DNA of 64,000 nt from an uncultured Campylobacterales bacterium (GTDB taxonomy: Bacteria > Campylobacterota > Campylobacteria > Campylobacterales > Arcobacteraceae): NCBI GenBank assembly GCA_947503785.1, contig CANNFB010000002.1:124001-188000 (forward strand), read 5' to 3'. The notes below the pieces were generated by a model. The model saw only the letters and a program-made list of their open reading frames with translations, ran no database searches and was not told the DNA's origin. The position numbers and the translations under genes are program-made. Of this stretch, positions 39,196 through 64,000 are shown one piece after another; within the stretch, counting starts at the first letter, position 1; every line of letters starts with the position of its first letter.

Positions 39196-39543
39196 ATGGA
39201 AAAAGTTGTTCTATACTATGATGGTGATTGTCCATTTTGTAATAAATATGCCGATATTCTTAAATTTAAAAAATGTTTTGATTTAGAAATATGTGATGCG
39301 AGAGCTGATTTGACTTGGAAAAAATACAAGAAAGATATAATTCTTGATGATGTTGTAATACTTATTTTTAAAAACGAATGCTATCAAGGTGTACCTGCAA
39401 TTGAAATGCTTTTGAGTATTTGTAAATATGATGGCCTATTTTTCAATTTACAGAAACTTGTCTTTTCAAATAAAACTCTTGGAAATATTACCTATTTATG
39501 TTTTAAATTCTTGCGTAAAATAACACTATGGATTAAATCTTAA
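39196..39543 (+). CDS. DCC-family thiol-disulfide oxidoreductase-like protein (DUF393)
   Basis: A 115-residue protein with the DCC signature YYDGDCPFCNK (7-17; C12 and C15), the thioredoxin-like CxxC of the DUF393 family. The protein is soluble with a basic, hydrophobic C-terminus. The family's function is poorly known. Its ATG has TCCGGAGAT upstream. It overlaps the convergent histidine-kinase gene by 11 bases and lies divergent from the MASE1 cyclase, as a plus-strand insert in a minus-strand signalling cluster. Confidence 0.85.
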   Translation: MEKVVLYYDGDCPFCNKYADILKFKKCFDLEICDARADLTWKKYKKDIILDDVVILIFKNECYQGVPAIEMLLSICKYDGLFFNLQKLVFSNKTLGNITYLCFKFLRKITLWIKS

Positions 39544-41547: not shown

Positions 41548-44487
41548 TTAAATTTCAAATCCATTTTTAAGAAGAAGTTCAAACTTATCAGCAGGGATAG
41601 GTTTAGAATATAAATAGCCTTGAATATTTTCACAACCATTGAGAACTAAAAAATCTTTTTGTTCTTTTGTTTCAACACCTTCTGCAATAACTTTAAGATT
41701 TAAACTTTTAGCCAAGGCAATCACAGCTCGTGTAATTCCAGCATCTTCTTCATCTTCTGGTAAATCCCTTACAAAAGCTTGATCAATTTTAAGTTTATCT
41801 ATTGGTAGTCTTTTTAAATATGCCAAAGAAGAGTACCCTGTTCCAAAGTCATCAACAGCTAGTTCAATACCTAAGTTACTTATTTTAGTAAGTAGTTTAA
41901 TAGCCTCATCAGGATTTGTCATAATTTGACCTTCTGTAACTTCTAATTCAAGCCATTGTGCTTCACATTTAGTTTCTATTATTAGCTCTTCAAACATTTC
42001 TATAAAATCTTCTTTATGAAGTTGTTTTACAGCAAGATTCATAGCAAGAACACCAGGATTTAATCCTTTTTTATACCACTTAGAAACTTGGTTCATAGCT
42101 TTTTTCATAACAATTCTATCAAGCTCTACAATTAATCCTGTAGCTTGAGCTAAAGGAATAAATTTAGCGGGAGAAACAAGTCCCATAATAGGATGTTCCC
42201 ATCGTACTAAAGCTTCTAATCCTATTAATTCATCTGTTATTCCATTTACTTGAGCTTGATAATAAACTACAAATTGATCTCGCACCAGAGCTTCTCTAAG
42301 ACTTGTTTCCATAACAACCCTTTCAAATGCAAGTTCTGTCATCATTGAGTTGTAGTATTGAAAGTTATTTCTCCCTTCATCTTTAGCTTTATACATTGCA
42401 GAATCAGCATATTTAAGAAGATTTTGAGTTGAACTTCCATCATCTGGATAGATACTAATACCAATACTACTAGAAACATATAATATATTGCCTTCTACAT
42501 TTATAGGATTAGATAAGGCTTCTATGATTTTTTTAGCAATTTTTGAACTATCTTGAACTTCAGAGAGTTCTCCTAAAATTATTGTAAATTCATCTCCACC
42601 TAATCTTGATACAGTATCTTCTTCTCTAACAACTTTTTTCAATCTATTACTTACTGTTTTTAAAATCTCATCACCTACATCATGTCCTAAAGAATCGTTG
42701 ATCTCTTTAAAGTGATCTAAGTCTATAAATAGCAAGGCAGTTTTTGTTTGCTTTCGTTTTGATACTTGTATTGATTGCTCTAGCCTATCATGGAAAAGTA
42801 TTCTATTTGGTAATCCAGTTAATGCATCATGATGCGCTTGATGACTTAAAATATTTTTTTGTTTTTTAAGTGCTAGTTCCATCTCTCTTTGATGTGTTAT
42901 ATCGGCATAAGAACCTAGAATACCAATTATGTTATCATTCTCATCTTTTAATGGTACTTTCGAAGTTAATAATGCAGTAATATTTCCATTTGCATGTGTT
43001 TGAGTTTCTTCAAAATTGATTTTTGCAATACCACTATTCATTACACTTAAATCATTTTCTATTATAAGTTCAGCTTCTTCTTTTTTCCAAGGCATTTGGA
43101 AATCTGATTTGCCAATGATTTCCTCAGCACTTTCAAAGCCAGCATCTTCTAAAAACAGTTTATTAGCCCCTAAATAATTACACTCTTTATCTTTCCAAAA
43201 TATTCTTGAAGGCACAGTATTAATAATATTTTGTACCAAGTCATATTGAGAAGATAGTTTTTTATTTAAGTTTTCTATTTGAGAAGTTTCAAAACCATAG
43301 ACTAATATATTATTTGAATCTCTAGAACCAATACAGTTTAATAAATAATATTTATCATTTTCATATATTCTTGTAGTTCTATTTTCTTGATTATCTATCA
43401 TATTATAAATATCATCACTTTCAAAATGACTAAATATATCTGTAATATTTAGGATATTAGGAAGTTTTCTTTTCTTAGGATTATTTTCAAAACTAATAAT
43501 CCCTTCTCTATCAAATGCAAATATTGGTTCTTTATTATATTTTGGAAAGTCTATTAAATTTGCATTTTTTAAATATATAGAATCTAATTGATTTTTCAAT
43601 GCAATATTTTCTTTTAAAAGTGGATTATCATCATTTTCAACTTCATTAATAATTGGTGCATCTTTTTTTCTACACCATTCATTCCATCCTGCAAAATATA
43701 TCCTGATATTCTCATATCCTAATCTTCTAAGTGCTATATAACTATTTGATAATCTAGCACCTTTAAAACAGTATAAAACAATATCATCATTTTTATTTAT
43801 ATTTTTCTTTTTTAACTCTTTTTGTATTCGTTCAAGTGATTGAACACTTAGCATATTACTAGTAATAAATTTGTACCACTCTATCCAAATAGCATTAGGT
43901 AATCTTCCTTTTTTTGGAGCAAAATCCATCCCATAAGGAGAAGAACGGATACCTACCCATTCATCTTTATCTCTAACATCAAGTTTTATAATTTTTGGAT
44001 TATCAATATATGATAACATTTCATTGTAATCTACAAAAAACTTTTCATCTATATTTGAAATAAACTTTTTGTAACAATTATATGTAGTTTTTTTACTTGT
44101 TTTAAAACCACTTTTTTCCCAATTAACATAACCACTATCTAGTACTTTTATTTTTTTTTCATCATAACCTAAATATTTTAAAATACTTAAACCACGCGGT
44201 GATTTTAAGGTGAATTTATCTTCATAAAAGATAACTAACTCATCTTTACAAACACCGGCTTTTGAGAATAAATCTTCATAAAAATCTATAAAAGCTTTTT
44301 TTTCTTTTTTTGTAGTCATACCTTTTGGTAGATATGTGAAAACTTCTGGAAAGTTTACAGCAGAATCAATATGCCCGTTTGCATACTCTTCTTTTAATCG
44401 AACATCAATAATAACTATTTCTTTTTTATTTTTCAATAATTTATTTAATTCATCTGCTTGTATCATAAAATCAATATAGTTCGACAT
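41548..44487 (-). CDS. Tandem rhodanese - PAS - GGDEF - EAL protein (c-di-GMP metabolism)
   Basis: A 979-residue soluble protein. Rhodanese-like domain 1 (about 10-135) has no Cys at the active position (FYEDKF). Rhodanese domain 2 (about 150-280) has the active loop YCFKGAR with C240. A PAS-like segment (320-405) and a PAS domain (415-535) follow. The GGDEF domain (545-712) has intact GGDEF at 630-634 and an RxxD site. The EAL domain (720-975) has LEALVRW, ELEVTEG and DDFGTGYSS. The tandem rhodanese fold is that of thiosulfate sulfurtransferases, so the protein could sense a persulfide or thiosulfate and alter c-di-GMP. That link is inference. Start ATG after GGGAG. Confidence 0.88.
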   Translation of the reverse strand: MSNYIDFMIQADELNKLLKNKKEIVIIDVRLKEEYANGHIDSAVNFPEVFTYLPKGMTTKKEKKAFIDFYEDLFSKAGVCKDELVIFYEDKFTLKSPRGLSILKYLGYDEKKIKVLDSGYVNWEKSGFKTSKKTTYNCYKKFISNIDEKFFVDYNEMLSYIDNPKIIKLDVRDKDEWVGIRSSPYGMDFAPKKGRLPNAIWIEWYKFITSNMLSVQSLERIQKELKKKNINKNDDIVLYCFKGARLSNSYIALRRLGYENIRIYFAGWNEWCRKKDAPIINEVENDDNPLLKENIALKNQLDSIYLKNANLIDFPKYNKEPIFAFDREGIISFENNPKKRKLPNILNITDIFSHFESDDIYNMIDNQENRTTRIYENDKYYLLNCIGSRDSNNILVYGFETSQIENLNKKLSSQYDLVQNIINTVPSRIFWKDKECNYLGANKLFLEDAGFESAEEIIGKSDFQMPWKKEEAELIIENDLSVMNSGIAKINFEETQTHANGNITALLTSKVPLKDENDNIIGILGSYADITHQREMELALKKQKNILSHQAHHDALTGLPNRILFHDRLEQSIQVSKRKQTKTALLFIDLDHFKEINDSLGHDVGDEILKTVSNRLKKVVREEDTVSRLGGDEFTIILGELSEVQDSSKIAKKIIEALSNPINVEGNILYVSSSIGISIYPDDGSSTQNLLKYADSAMYKAKDEGRNNFQYYNSMMTELAFERVVMETSLREALVRDQFVVYYQAQVNGITDELIGLEALVRWEHPIMGLVSPAKFIPLAQATGLIVELDRIVMKKAMNQVSKWYKKGLNPGVLAMNLAVKQLHKEDFIEMFEELIIETKCEAQWLELEVTEGQIMTNPDEAIKLLTKISNLGIELAVDDFGTGYSSLAYLKRLPIDKLKIDQAFVRDLPEDEEDAGITRAVIALAKSLNLKVIAEGVETKEQKDFLVLNGCENIQGYLYSKPIPADKFELLLKNGFEI

Positions 44488-44556: not shown

Positions 44557-47121
44557 TTATAACCTTCTATTAGCAAGAGAAATAGGTATTTTAATACTAA
44601 GTTTTGCGCCTTTATATTTAATATCTTCATATATATATTCTTCATTGCTAGCACATAAGCTACCATCTAAATGACTTCCAATAATATCTTGTGACATATA
44701 TAAGCCTATTCCTGTTCCTTGAGATTGGTGTTTAGTTGTAAAATATGGTTCAAATATTCTATCAATTATCTCTTCTTTTATTCCTTTAGCATTATCTTTT
44801 ATTTCTATAACTAGTAAATTATTTTCAATATAAGAATTTACAAATATTAATCTTCTTCCTTCTTCCAATTTAAGTAATGCATCTTTTGAATTATTTAATA
44901 TATTTAAAAGAACTTGTATAAGTTCATTTTCTAATGATACAATAGATATATCAGTTAAATTTTTTATTATCTCAATATCTTTTGATACAAATTGAGAGCT
45001 TACAAGATTTAAGGCTTTATCAATTGTCTTAGAAATTAAAAATTCTTTTTCTTTATTATTTTTAGTATCAAAGAAACCTCTAAAATCTTCTATCGTTTGA
45101 GATAAATGCTGTACAGACTTATTAATTGAATCCATTGCTTCATTAAAATCTGCATCACTTAAGATATCCATCTCTTTTTGTAATTTTGAACCAGTTGCAA
45201 CTGTTGAAATCACTGATAAAGGTTGTCTCCATTGATGCGCTATATTTCCTAACATCTCACCCATTGAAGCCATTTTACTTTGTTGATAAAACAATCTATC
45301 TCTTTCTTCTTTTTCTAGTACCATAAGTTTTCTATGTGTAATATCTTGCTTCACTGCAATAAAATTTACTATCTCTTCATTTTCATCAAGAACAGGAGTA
45401 ATTATCAACTCCTCATCATATAAACTTCCATCTTTCTTTTTATTAACAATCTCACCTTTCCAAGGTTTCTTAGCTAATATTGTATTCCACATTTGTGAGT
45501 AAAATTCTTTTGTTTGTTTTTTTGAAGAGATAAACTCCTTAGGGTTTTTTCCTATAATTTCATCTACTCTAAATCCTGACAACTTTTCAAATGCAGGATT
45601 AGCCCACTGCACAATTGCATCTTTATCCGTTATAACAACACAATTTATACTTGATTCAAGAGCTTTAATTAATAAGGCACTTTTATCCTCAAGCTTTTTT
45701 TGGAGGCTAATATCACTGAAAGAAGTAACAATTTCAAACTCATCATTAGAACGAGAAACTATACTAGCATTTACAAAAACCGGTATATTTTTACCTTTAG
45801 AGTTTGAAAAATACTCTTTCTTCGAAATAAAAGAATTATTCTTCATAACTCCGGTAAAAATAGGACAATCTTCTTGCTTAATATTATCATTTAGATAATG
45901 TGAGTGAAAAAGATTATGGGCATTTTCACCTAAGATTTCTTCTTCTTTATAGCCTAAAATTTTACAGGCAATTGGGTTTATATAATTAATTCTAGCATTT
46001 GAATCCATAACATATAATCCCTCACCTAAGCTATCAGTTATTGATTTAAACCATTTTTGTTCATCTTCTAATTTTTTTGTTTTTCTATATATTATTATAG
46101 TCATTATTATAAGAATTATCATTCCAAATATTACAAGCAAGTATGCATATACTTCTAGAGAAAGAATAATTGGTAAATTTATACTTTTTTTATATCCTAT
46201 TAAATAACCTTCAACTTTTTTATTAATACCAAGCATTGGAATAAATGTAACATCATAATAAGTATTATCAAGTTTTATAAAAACTCCATATTTTTTTCCC
46301 TTGCTCATAGCTTCTTTTATTCTTTTATTCTTATATAACTCTTTATTAATTTCTTTTACTTCATAGCTAAGTTCTTTAGGCGAATCAGGTAAAGAAGAGT
46401 TCTTATCTTCTATTAAAAAATCTGAATTAATCTCTGAACTTTGATATAAAAACTTCTGACTTTCAAATAACTTAGCATACACAACATCCTTACTTAAAAG
46501 AAAAGAGTATTCTCTTCTTTTATCCAAATTTGAAATAGAGTCCAACATCATTTTAGTTGAAATACTAATTTCTACACTTCCGATGTGTTTATTTTTAAAG
46601 TTAATTGGAAATATATTTCTAAATCCAGACATAACTCTTCCTGTATCAAAACTTGTTACAATTCTATTCTCTTCATTTGCAACTCTAATTGTTTCTCTTA
46701 GTTTGGATAAATCATCTCCATATTTACTAGGTTTATGGAACCTGATATAACTTTCGTTATTCTTTGTATGAAAATGGAATTGTCTTATTCCTTCTTTTTT
46801 TAATCTTACATATAAAGGGTATAATTCTTTATATAATAAACCTTTATATAATCGTCTTGCATCCTCTTTAGAATTAATTCCTCTTTCAAAAAGAGATATT
46901 ATAAATTCATCATGAATAGACTCTTCTAGAATATATTTTGTTAGTAAAGCATATTTATCAATACTTACATTATATGCAAGATCAAGGCTTAGTATATTTT
47001 CATTAAAAAAATCTACTTCTTTACTTTTTTTATAATAATTGATAAAGAAGAGAGTAATACTACCTACAATTATAATAAAAAATATAATAAACTTATAAAG
47101 ATGACTGATTTTTACTTTCAT
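44557..47121 (-). CDS. Sensor histidine kinase with dCache, two PAS domains and HQWRQPL kinase core
   Basis: An 854-residue protein: membrane helix at about 9-28, periplasmic double Cache of the dCache_3 type (RQFHFHTKNNESYIRFHKP, then FRNIFPINFKNKHIGSVEIS), second helix near 315-345, PAS1, PAS2 (WANPAFEKLSGF), then HisKA (NIAHQWRQPLS) and HATPase (GTGIGLYMS). It shares the kinase core style of the 39533 gene. Its ATG overlaps the phnD-like stop by one base (TAATG). There is no receiver domain and no adjacent regulator, so its phosphotransfer partner is elsewhere. Confidence 0.9.
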   Translation of the reverse strand: MKVKISHLYKFIIFFIIIVGSITLFFINYYKKSKEVDFFNENILSLDLAYNVSIDKYALLTKYILEESIHDEFIISLFERGINSKEDARRLYKGLLYKELYPLYVRLKKEGIRQFHFHTKNNESYIRFHKPSKYGDDLSKLRETIRVANEENRIVTSFDTGRVMSGFRNIFPINFKNKHIGSVEISISTKMMLDSISNLDKRREYSFLLSKDVVYAKLFESQKFLYQSSEINSDFLIEDKNSSLPDSPKELSYEVKEINKELYKNKRIKEAMSKGKKYGVFIKLDNTYYDVTFIPMLGINKKVEGYLIGYKKSINLPIILSLEVYAYLLVIFGMIILIIMTIIIYRKTKKLEDEQKWFKSITDSLGEGLYVMDSNARINYINPIACKILGYKEEEILGENAHNLFHSHYLNDNIKQEDCPIFTGVMKNNSFISKKEYFSNSKGKNIPVFVNASIVSRSNDEFEIVTSFSDISLQKKLEDKSALLIKALESSINCVVITDKDAIVQWANPAFEKLSGFRVDEIIGKNPKEFISSKKQTKEFYSQMWNTILAKKPWKGEIVNKKKDGSLYDEELIITPVLDENEEIVNFIAVKQDITHRKLMVLEKEERDRLFYQQSKMASMGEMLGNIAHQWRQPLSVISTVATGSKLQKEMDILSDADFNEAMDSINKSVQHLSQTIEDFRGFFDTKNNKEKEFLISKTIDKALNLVSSQFVSKDIEIIKNLTDISIVSLENELIQVLLNILNNSKDALLKLEEGRRLIFVNSYIENNLLVIEIKDNAKGIKEEIIDRIFEPYFTTKHQSQGTGIGLYMSQDIIGSHLDGSLCASNEEYIYEDIKYKGAKLSIKIPISLANRRL

Positions 47122-47948
47122 TAAAAATTACTTTTATGTGATATATTTGTTGATTTTATAAGTTTACGAAGATGATTATAATCTGTATTATTTGTTTCTA
47201 CTGTTCCGAACTTCATACTTTTATCCCAAAGAGAGAACTCTTTTTTTTCTACTGTTAACATACTATTTTTAATATTTGTTAGTAATTGAGTATCTAGAGT
47301 TTTCTTATTCCCCACTAAAATAAAACCTGGTATTGCTTTAGATCGTACAATCTCCTCTAATCCTAAATGCCAATACTCTTTAGCAATATCTGTTTTCACG
47401 CCGCCATATTTAAACTCGCCTCTAATTACACTCAATGCAACATTATCATGTCTATCAACATATTTATATTTATTTTTTTCTATATCTGTATTAAAATTAT
47501 TTAATACATCATTTACAAATAAATATCCACAAGTAGACAAAGGTTGAGTTAATGCAATTTTATTATCAATCATATTTTCAATAGAACTTCGTGTAGAAAT
47601 AAAACTTACGAAGGAGCAAGTATAAGAGACTTCACCTTTTTCATTTTTAAAATTAACTAGAGGCTTTGCATAGGGATATCTCTCTTCAAGTGATAAATAT
47701 GGTAAGGGTCCTAAATATGCTATATCAATCTTCCCATTTATAAATTTCTCTAATAAAGTATCATAGCTACTATTATAATCAATTTTAATTTTAACATTTA
47801 GTTTTTTCTCTAAATATCTAGTCATAGGCAAAAATTGAGCATGTATTGTTTTAATATCTTTTGTTGCTAAGGGAGCGAAAATCAAAGTTTTGATATCTCC
47901 AAAGAGGAATAAAGGAAAAATCAATATAAGAATTATAAATTTAAACAT
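47121..47948 (-). CDS. PhnD-type periplasmic substrate-binding protein (sensor accessory)
   Basis: A 275-residue exported protein: signal peptide (FIILILIFPLFLFG, cleavage near residue 17), then the phosphate/phosphonate-binding-like fold (LIFAPLATKDIKTIHAQFLPMTRYLEKKL, then GKIDIAYLGPLPYLS and PLSTCGYLFVNDVL). No ABC permease or ATPase is near; instead its stop overlaps the start of a histidine kinase. The same domain is fused to the tetrathionate sensor kinase TtrS, so this could be a separate sensory subunit. The ligand is unknown; tetrathionate or another sulfur or phosphorus oxyanion is inference. Confidence 0.82.
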   Translation of the reverse strand: MFKFIILILIFPLFLFGDIKTLIFAPLATKDIKTIHAQFLPMTRYLEKKLNVKIKIDYNSSYDTLLEKFINGKIDIAYLGPLPYLSLEERYPYAKPLVNFKNEKGEVSYTCSFVSFISTRSSIENMIDNKIALTQPLSTCGYLFVNDVLNNFNTDIEKNKYKYVDRHDNVALSVIRGEFKYGGVKTDIAKEYWHLGLEEIVRSKAIPGFILVGNKKTLDTQLLTNIKNSMLTVEKKEFSLWDKSMKFGTVETNNTDYNHLRKLIKSTNISHKSNF

Positions 47949-63106: not shown

Positions 63107-64000
63107 CTAGTCTAAAGGCTCATTAACTTCAATCTTACAATCATTTCCTTTACAGTCAATATTTGCATCAAAATAAAATATTTCACTAATATCTAGTTTT
63201 GCATCTTTTAATTTAGCCCATGCTTCAATAGATCTTCCACCTGCAGTACAATTAAATACTATAGTTTTATTTTTAGGAAGTTTAGCTAATAACTCACCCG
63301 CTTTAAAATTTGCAGCTTCAATATTAACAGCACCATTTAAATGTCCTAGTTTAAACTCATCAGCAGCTGTTACATCTACAATTTGAACATATTCTGGAAC
63401 CTTCTTATCTAAAAGAAGTTTTTTAAACCATTCTCCATCAACAGAACCTTCATCAACACCTAATTTTAATCCATTATTACTAAATAATTTTTTCTTAACT
63501 TCATTTTTTATTTCAGTTTTTTTAGATTGTGCAGTTGTTGGTAAATTTTCTTTTTTCCAAGCTGGAAGTCCAGCAGAGTAAACTGATACATTTTTATAAT
63601 CTAATGATATAAGTTTATTGGCAACTATATGTGATTTAGCACATTTATATCCACCACAAAAAACTATGATTTTTTCATCTTTATTAATAGGAAATCTTCC
63701 TATATATTTATCTAGTTTTGTATCAGGGATTGAAATTGCTCCAGGAACTGTTTCTTGTAAAAACTTTTTATATGGTCTTGCATCTACAATTAAAGCAGAG
63801 TTATTTTCATATGCAGATTTTAAAACTACTGAACTAACTTCTTTATAGCTTTTATTAATCCACTCAGGTTCACCTGCTGGATAAACTTTCACATTTGTAA
63901 AACCTTTTTTTATAAGCATTCCAGCAACTTTAGGACTTTTGGCACATTTATATCCACCACAATAAATAATCAATTCTTTATCTTTTGGTATATCTTTTAA
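63107..64000 (-). CDS. Multi-rhodanese-domain protein, 5' end cut by window edge
   Basis: The frame stays open to position 64000, so the N-terminus is outside; the TTG at 63973 is internal to a rhodanese domain. At least three rhodanese-like domains are visible in order: one with YCGGYKCAKS at the partial start, one with FCGGYKCAKSHIVAN (about 105-120 from the 63973 codon), and one ending in NCTAGGRSIEA. Each retains the active-loop Cys. CGGYKC loops with a second Cys are unusual for classical sulfurtransferases. It may carry or transfer sulfane sulfur; compartment is unknown because a signal peptide cannot be seen. Confidence 0.8.
   Translation of the reverse strand, partial: LKDIPKDKELIIYCGGYKCAKSPKVAGMLIKKGFTNVKVYPAGEPEWINKSYKEVSSVVLKSAYENNSALIVDARPYKKFLQETVPGAISIPDTKLDKYIGRFPINKDEKIIVFCGGYKCAKSHIVANKLISLDYKNVSVYSAGLPAWKKENLPTTAQSKKTEIKNEVKKKLFSNNGLKLGVDEGSVDGEWFKKLLLDKKVPEYVQIVDVTAADEFKLGHLNGAVNIEAANFKAGELLAKLPKNKTIVFNCTAGGRSIEAWAKLKDAKLDISEIFYFDANIDCKGNDCKIEVNEPLD

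Follow-up and report, generated by a model that had tools for sequence, protein, structure and literature searches.

A protein encoded in the window (the whole 64,000-nucleotide stretch of DNA that was analyzed) joins two consecutive rhodanese domains to PAS, GGDEF and EAL domains, and we hold with moderate confidence that the rhodanese pair does the sensing for a cytosolic, bifunctional c-di-GMP enzyme, with a sulfur donor acting via cysteine C240 as the likeliest trigger. The sensor role of the rhodanese module is the well-supported part of this reading: related bacteria repeatedly pair such modules with signaling proteins, so the modules are probably sensors, and most likely sensors of reactive sulfur. 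The module, its conservation, the intact catalytic motifs, the swapping of outputs and a split version are read from the sequence; we infer the ligand, the persulfide chemistry, the role of a second cysteine (C272) and the direction of control.

The limits given in the original prediction (41548-44487) are right, and the gene is on the minus strand, with its ATG at 44487 and its stop ending at 41548; the plus strand across the same interval is riddled with stops (ORF analysis). Pfam bore out the proposed order rhodanese-rhodanese-PAS-GGDEF-EAL, which could be refined to R1-R2-CC-PAS-CC-PAS-GGDEF-EAL (Table 1). Whether the N-terminal region is rhodanese at all had been posed as a check, and a Pfam profile search, an AF2 model and Foldseek all identify two rhodanese domains there; the Pfam Rhodanese match (E=3e-34) falls into two stretches, each of which passes the cut-off separately. 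The AF2 model of residues 1-417 (25 sequences, pLDDT 83) contains both rhodanese domains, a helix at 289-307, a PAS-like fold and a helix at 402-414; the PAS-like alpha/beta fold at residues ~320-400 was missed by both Pfam and the original prediction. No signal peptide or TM segment was found in the 979-aa protein, which should therefore be cytosolic. The GGDEF, I-site and EAL motifs are intact as described earlier, the I-site (REED, 621-624) lying five residues N-terminal of GGDEF (630-634), and this combination of GGDEF with RxxD and EAL catalytic motifs is that of bifunctional GGDEF-EAL proteins (Pfam, motif scan). Intact motifs leave open which of the two domains is active, both being predicted to be enzymatic. 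Strong Pfam, AF2 and ortholog support rules out chance or artefact as the source of the fusion.

Table 1. Features of the fusion gene and of the two genes upstream of it, in window coordinates.
Feature	Position	Strand	Evidence
979-aa tandem rhodanese-PAS-PAS-GGDEF-EAL protein	41548..44487	minus	ORF; Pfam; same-architecture orthologs in Poseidonibacter lekithochrous and MAG CPC16
Rhodanese domain 1 (R1), residues ~11-125, no loop Cys (Y88-E89-D90)	44113..44457	minus	Pfam PF00581 E=5.6e-16; alignment; AF2
Rhodanese domain 2 (R2), residues 155-273, loop CFKGAR	43669..44025	minus	Pfam PF00581 E=3.2e-18; TST/MST fold match
C240 codon, putative persulfide-forming cysteine	43768..43770	minus	Alignment: invariant in 19 fused and stand-alone relatives; 56/56 loops CFKG[AS]R
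C272 codon (WNEWCR), second Cys specific to signaling-linked members	43672..43674	minus	Alignment: Cys 6/6 vs Ser 50/50 stand-alone
Helix, residues 289-307, likely coiled coil, rhodanese-to-PAS linker	43567..43623	minus	AF2, low local confidence; kept at start of split gammaproteobacterial kinase
PAS-like domain 1, residues ~320-400	43288..43530	minus	AF2 alpha/beta pattern; conserved in all five orthologs; no Pfam match
PAS domain 2, residues 425-534	42886..43215	minus	Pfam PAS_4 E=2.9e-8
GGDEF domain, intact GGDEF 630-634, RxxD I-site 621-624	42364..42837	minus	Pfam residues 551-708 (6e-55); motif positions
EAL domain, intact EAL at 758, DDFGTG, KIDQAF, AEGVET	41599..42303	minus	Pfam residues 729-963 (2e-70); motifs
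dCache-PAS-PAS histidine kinase gene, upstream of fusion	44557..47121	minus	Pfam; 78% identical homolog near ortholog in G097, absent there in G093
PhnD-like periplasmic binding protein gene, overlaps kinase gene	47121..47948	minus	Pfam; 74% identical homolog in G097

The rhodanese half resembles the TST/MST sulfurtransferases (1uar, 3aay, 1urh and bovine rhodanese), which are its best fold and sequence matches and which likewise have two rhodanese domains, an inactive first one and a six-residue Cys loop in the second. Among PDB entries the best Foldseek matches of the AF2 model are TST/MST enzymes (TM 0.78-0.82 of target), two consecutive rhodanese-fold domains are seen by Pfam, AF2 and Foldseek alike, and a six-residue loop beginning with Cys is found in R2 and none in R1. 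The R2 loop, Y239-C240-F-K-G-A-R245, is thus sulfurtransferase-like in its six residues, and the phosphatase/arsenate-reductase-like rhodaneses, which have a seven-residue loop, are ruled out as a reading. In R1 the loop-Cys position is filled by E89, invariant in fused and stand-alone relatives (alignment). The distribution of cysteines first reported, and the TST/MST layout of inactive R1 and Cys-bearing R2 drawn from it, are supported accordingly. TST enzymes carry the loop signature CRKGVT and MST enzymes CG[ST]GVT; neither signature is present in the fused members, all of which carry CFKGAR, and for this reason the sulfur donor is not readable from the sequence. Relative to TST/MST enzymes, the fusion, a predicted sulfurtransferase, also has the extra C272 and an attached PAS-GGDEF-EAL or kinase part. 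The other half corresponds to PAS-GGDEF-EAL proteins with the same intact motifs (NCBIfam DibA, PRK10060 and DosP, its best NCBIfam matches, all far below equivalog cut-offs), with the difference that the input is a tandem rhodanese and not a heme-PAS, Cache or other sensor.

The cross-genome search for this architecture that had been suggested was run on 104 Arcobacteraceae genomes. The tandem-rhodanese and PAS module is rare, being present at full length in five of them (the window's own included), followed by GGDEF-EAL in three, which have the complete rhodanese-rhodanese-PAS-GGDEF-EAL architecture, and by a histidine kinase in two. Poseidonibacter lekithochrous and the Arcobacter MAG CPC16 share the window protein's architecture with 80-81% identity over residues 1-417, and the two kinase-output members are 62-65% identical over the same residues; in these, the Arcobacteraceae MAG G073 (651 aa, lacking PAS domain 2) and the Halarcobacter MAG G065 (778 aa), the module is followed by HisKA-HATPase with no GGDEF-EAL. 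A wide distribution in Campylobacterota is ruled out, since at E<=1e-45 only one of 397 sampled genomes of the phylum, the window's own, had the fusion. In the gammaproteobacterial MAG SI037_bin54 (L049) the module is split into two adjacent genes 141 nt apart, the first encoding a 290-aa tandem rhodanese and the second opening with the module's coiled coil and PAS before it continues as HisKA-HATPase-REC. With three in-frame stop codons in the spacer, the two genes are truly separate under the standard code; all three stops (L049:3228-3357) are TAG, probably by chance, with amber recoding conceivable. One conserved module with three outputs, found also in split form, reads as the classical signature of an input domain, and it is on these grounds that we assign the rhodanese part the role of input module.

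A tree groups the six fused or split members in a single clade (100/100), with stand-alone cytosolic sulfurtransferases as its sister group. Within this signaling clade the kinases and the split form are basal and the GGDEF-EAL fusions form one subclade. Sequence scoring found two markers of the clade, neither with exceptions and neither present in the 50 stand-alone relatives scored: a change of SCRG to [SA]PRG together with the loss of three residues in the region of the R1 loop, and a change of WNEWS to WNEWC, by which C272 is Cys in 6/6 signaling-linked members vs Ser in 50/50 stand-alone relatives. The closest outgroup consists of stand-alone cytosolic sulfurtransferases of ~285 aa with the loop CFKG[AS]R and the motif SSSPYGxDFAPRKGR, hosted by Acetobacteraceae, anammox bacteria, Nitrotoga, Thiotrichaceae and others. 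Plasmid searches for relatives returned stand-alone sulfurtransferases only, and on Roseobacter plasmids (L101, L102) these stand in a conserved cluster with ABC transporter, OsmC and acyl-CoA dehydrogenase-like genes, possibly a cluster for organosulfur use. Such organosulfur-like surroundings would suit a rhodanese that senses 3-mercaptopyruvate, an organosulfur compound, cyanide or a selenium species and not inorganic sulfane sulfur; this appears quite improbable, as the context comes from distant stand-alone relatives only and no similar genes lie beside the fusion. The G+C of the fusion gene equals that of the window (28%) and so does not indicate a recent foreign origin.

A pairing wider and more regular than the fusion itself was found among the next-best family matches, namely tandem rhodaneses that are exported, have a hydrophobic N-terminus and carry loops of the CDGGA[ED] or CxIGRV-like type. 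Campylobacterota contributed 42 loci at E<=3e-104 (L143-L184; 40 from Arcobacteraceae and two from other families), and in every one a signaling gene follows directly 3' on the same strand; it encodes a histidine kinase in 18 loci, a GGDEF-EAL protein in 23 and an HD-GYP protein in one. The rhodanese gene of one locus (L179, in G065) is interrupted by a stop. The CDGGAE-loop subfamily occurs with kinase or with GGDEF-EAL output, and in G075 (L177:3362-4681) HD-GYP replaces GGDEF-EAL behind the same membrane sensor, an output swap within c-di-GMP signaling. From 369 sampled gammaproteobacterial genomes came 19 relatives at E<=3e-62 (L233-L251), 18 of them with a histidine kinase or GGDEF(-EAL) gene directly 3' and the exception having a broken rhodanese frame. 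As controls, no same-strand signaling gene lies 3' of 18 more distant Campylobacterota tandem rhodaneses (other families, E 1e-41 to 1e-50), and none follows the 13 cytosolic CQTHHR-type proteins or the 51 stand-alone CFKG[AS]R proteins. The pairing thus holds in 60/61 exported loci vs 0/82 control tandem rhodaneses, numbers for which test values overstate significance because conserved operons are not independent events; the main argument lies in how sharply families that share one fold differ here. Given this contrast, and the fusions besides, the coupling of tandem rhodaneses to signaling appears to be systematic and to have been recruited at least twice. Descent of the fusion directly from an exported pair is unsupported, the two occupying different well-supported parts of a tree whose backbone root is weak. 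Taken together, the GGDEF-EAL and kinase fusions, the split PAS-kinase and the exported pairs support the idea, put forward for the window protein alone, that a tandem rhodanese can serve as input to a c-di-GMP enzyme.

The membrane partners of the exported proteins have a common N-terminal TM-sensor-TM region with some resemblance to CHASE8: of ten gammaproteobacterial partners, two have Pfam matches to CHASE8 that stay under the gathering score (E=1.5e-4 and 2e-3), and the Campylobacterota members scanned have none. These pairs are comparable to YfiBNR, in which a periplasmic partner is likewise encoded beside a membrane c-di-GMP enzyme, and differ from it in that the partner is a tandem rhodanese and not of the YfiR family (Pfam) and that histidine kinases and HD-GYP are among the outputs; the window protein can be seen as a one-piece cytosolic version. 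YfiR is a periplasmic, redox-sensitive protein controlling the diguanylate cyclase YfiN (PMC4992967), and by analogy the fusion could be a thiol-redox sensor, working through a reversible C240-C272 disulfide or through reaction with reactive oxygen or electrophiles, with no need for sulfur transfer. The restriction of C272 to signaling-linked members is consistent with this, as are the description of YfiR as the redox sensor of YfiN (PMC4992967) and the CHASE8-like sensor, below the Pfam cut-off, that accompanies the exported rhodaneses. We nevertheless think it unlikely: in the exported tandem rhodaneses the loop Cys is retained while a Gly stands at the position equivalent to C272, so that a mechanism shared with them would need to work through the loop Cys alone.

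On the reading that we favor, in which a sulfur donor acts via C240, sulfane sulfur (such as polysulfide or GSSH) or thiosulfate would pass sulfur to C240, and its persulfidation, or a later C240-C272 link, would alter the R1/R2 interface, with R1 as scaffold and C272 perhaps resolving or stabilizing the modified state of C240. The change would be relayed via the coiled coil and the two PAS domains to the GGDEF/EAL dimer, and c-di-GMP would thereby be tuned to sulfur supply. The polysulfide-using rhodanese EanB (6ktv, 6ku2), which is the top sequence-profile match, has a persulfided active-site cysteine, Cys412 (PDB titles); it differs from the fusion in being an ergothioneine biosynthetic enzyme without signaling domains.

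The host genome, that of a marine sulfur-oxidizing bacterium, carries soxB. Among Arcobacteraceae genomes this gene is present in 35/36 that have a fusion or pair vs 45/68 others (p=2e-4, uncorrected for kinship), a point in favor of the reading that is weakened by soxB being common in the family anyway and by the confounding effect of kinship. In marine Qipengyuania flava, c-di-GMP is reported to control thiosulfate oxidation via a LOV kinase and a PilZ protein (PMC10267684). This precedent, together with the retained loop Cys, would agree with a flow of information in the reverse direction, that is, a working sulfurtransferase whose activity or location is controlled by c-di-GMP or PAS. We regard this as very improbable, because histidine kinases, which act by phosphotransfer, are also found fused to this module or encoded beside it, and the GGDEF and EAL domains retain enzymatic and not receptor-type motifs.

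Exchangeable sensors on c-di-GMP enzymes were already known; a sulfurtransferase as the exchangeable sensor would be new. Known sensors of sulfane sulfur are mostly transcription factors, for example CstR-type repressors. If a sulfurtransferase does act as sensor, sulfur chemistry would be linked directly to c-di-GMP and two-component output, which bears on how bacteria at sulfide/oxygen interfaces tie sulfur supply to the motile-sessile decision. More tentatively, and with somewhat less than even confidence, we suggest that tandem sulfurtransferases are a recurrent input of signal transduction. Recruitment would have taken place no fewer than two times, giving cytosolic fusions on the one hand and, on the other, exported proteins that work with CHASE8-like kinases, GGDEF-EAL or HD-GYP proteins in the membrane. 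A persulfide in what used to be an enzyme's active site would then signal reactive sulfur and govern the c-di-GMP or phosphorelay output of sulfur-oxidizing Campylobacterota and Gammaproteobacteria. The strict pairing provides a ready-made set of systems to study and suggests what dozens of 'sulfurtransferase' genes, annotated so far as metabolic only, probably do. Within the open-licence literature that was searched (most subscription journals and preprints lie outside its coverage), rhodanese-linked c-di-GMP or histidine kinase signaling was not described, and the earlier remark that no characterized protein has this domain order holds there.

Against the reading that we favor stand the rarity of the fusion, a loop that does not reveal the donor, and the surroundings of the gene, which lies outside any sulfur-metabolism operon: around it are the PhnD-like/kinase pair and a tRNA cluster, to which relatives add a TetR gene. 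The locus adjoins a cluster of seven tRNAs, which accounts for the 1.16-kb upstream gap and rules out a degraded gene there. In G097 the PhnD-like/kinase pair (44557-47948) is found on the opposite side of the fusion gene, and in G093 it is missing from the locus; the pair thus changes place around a locus that stays fixed next to the tRNA cluster, and the binding protein and dCache kinase are ruled out as an obligate partner. In two relatives (L039:12272-12832, L040:3229-3801) the TetR gene comes immediately after the fusion, and the window lacks it; the two regulators are 95% identical to each other, and the N-terminal halves of the accompanying fusions are each only ~80% identical to that of the window. 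A gene for a DCC1-like thiol-disulfide oxidoreductase-like protein lies near the fusion (39196-39543) and is kept near it in G093 (76% identity). At the right edge of the window, and continuing past it, is a gene (63107-64000; L266:3108-4304) whose exported product has 398 aa and three Pfam matches to rhodanese.
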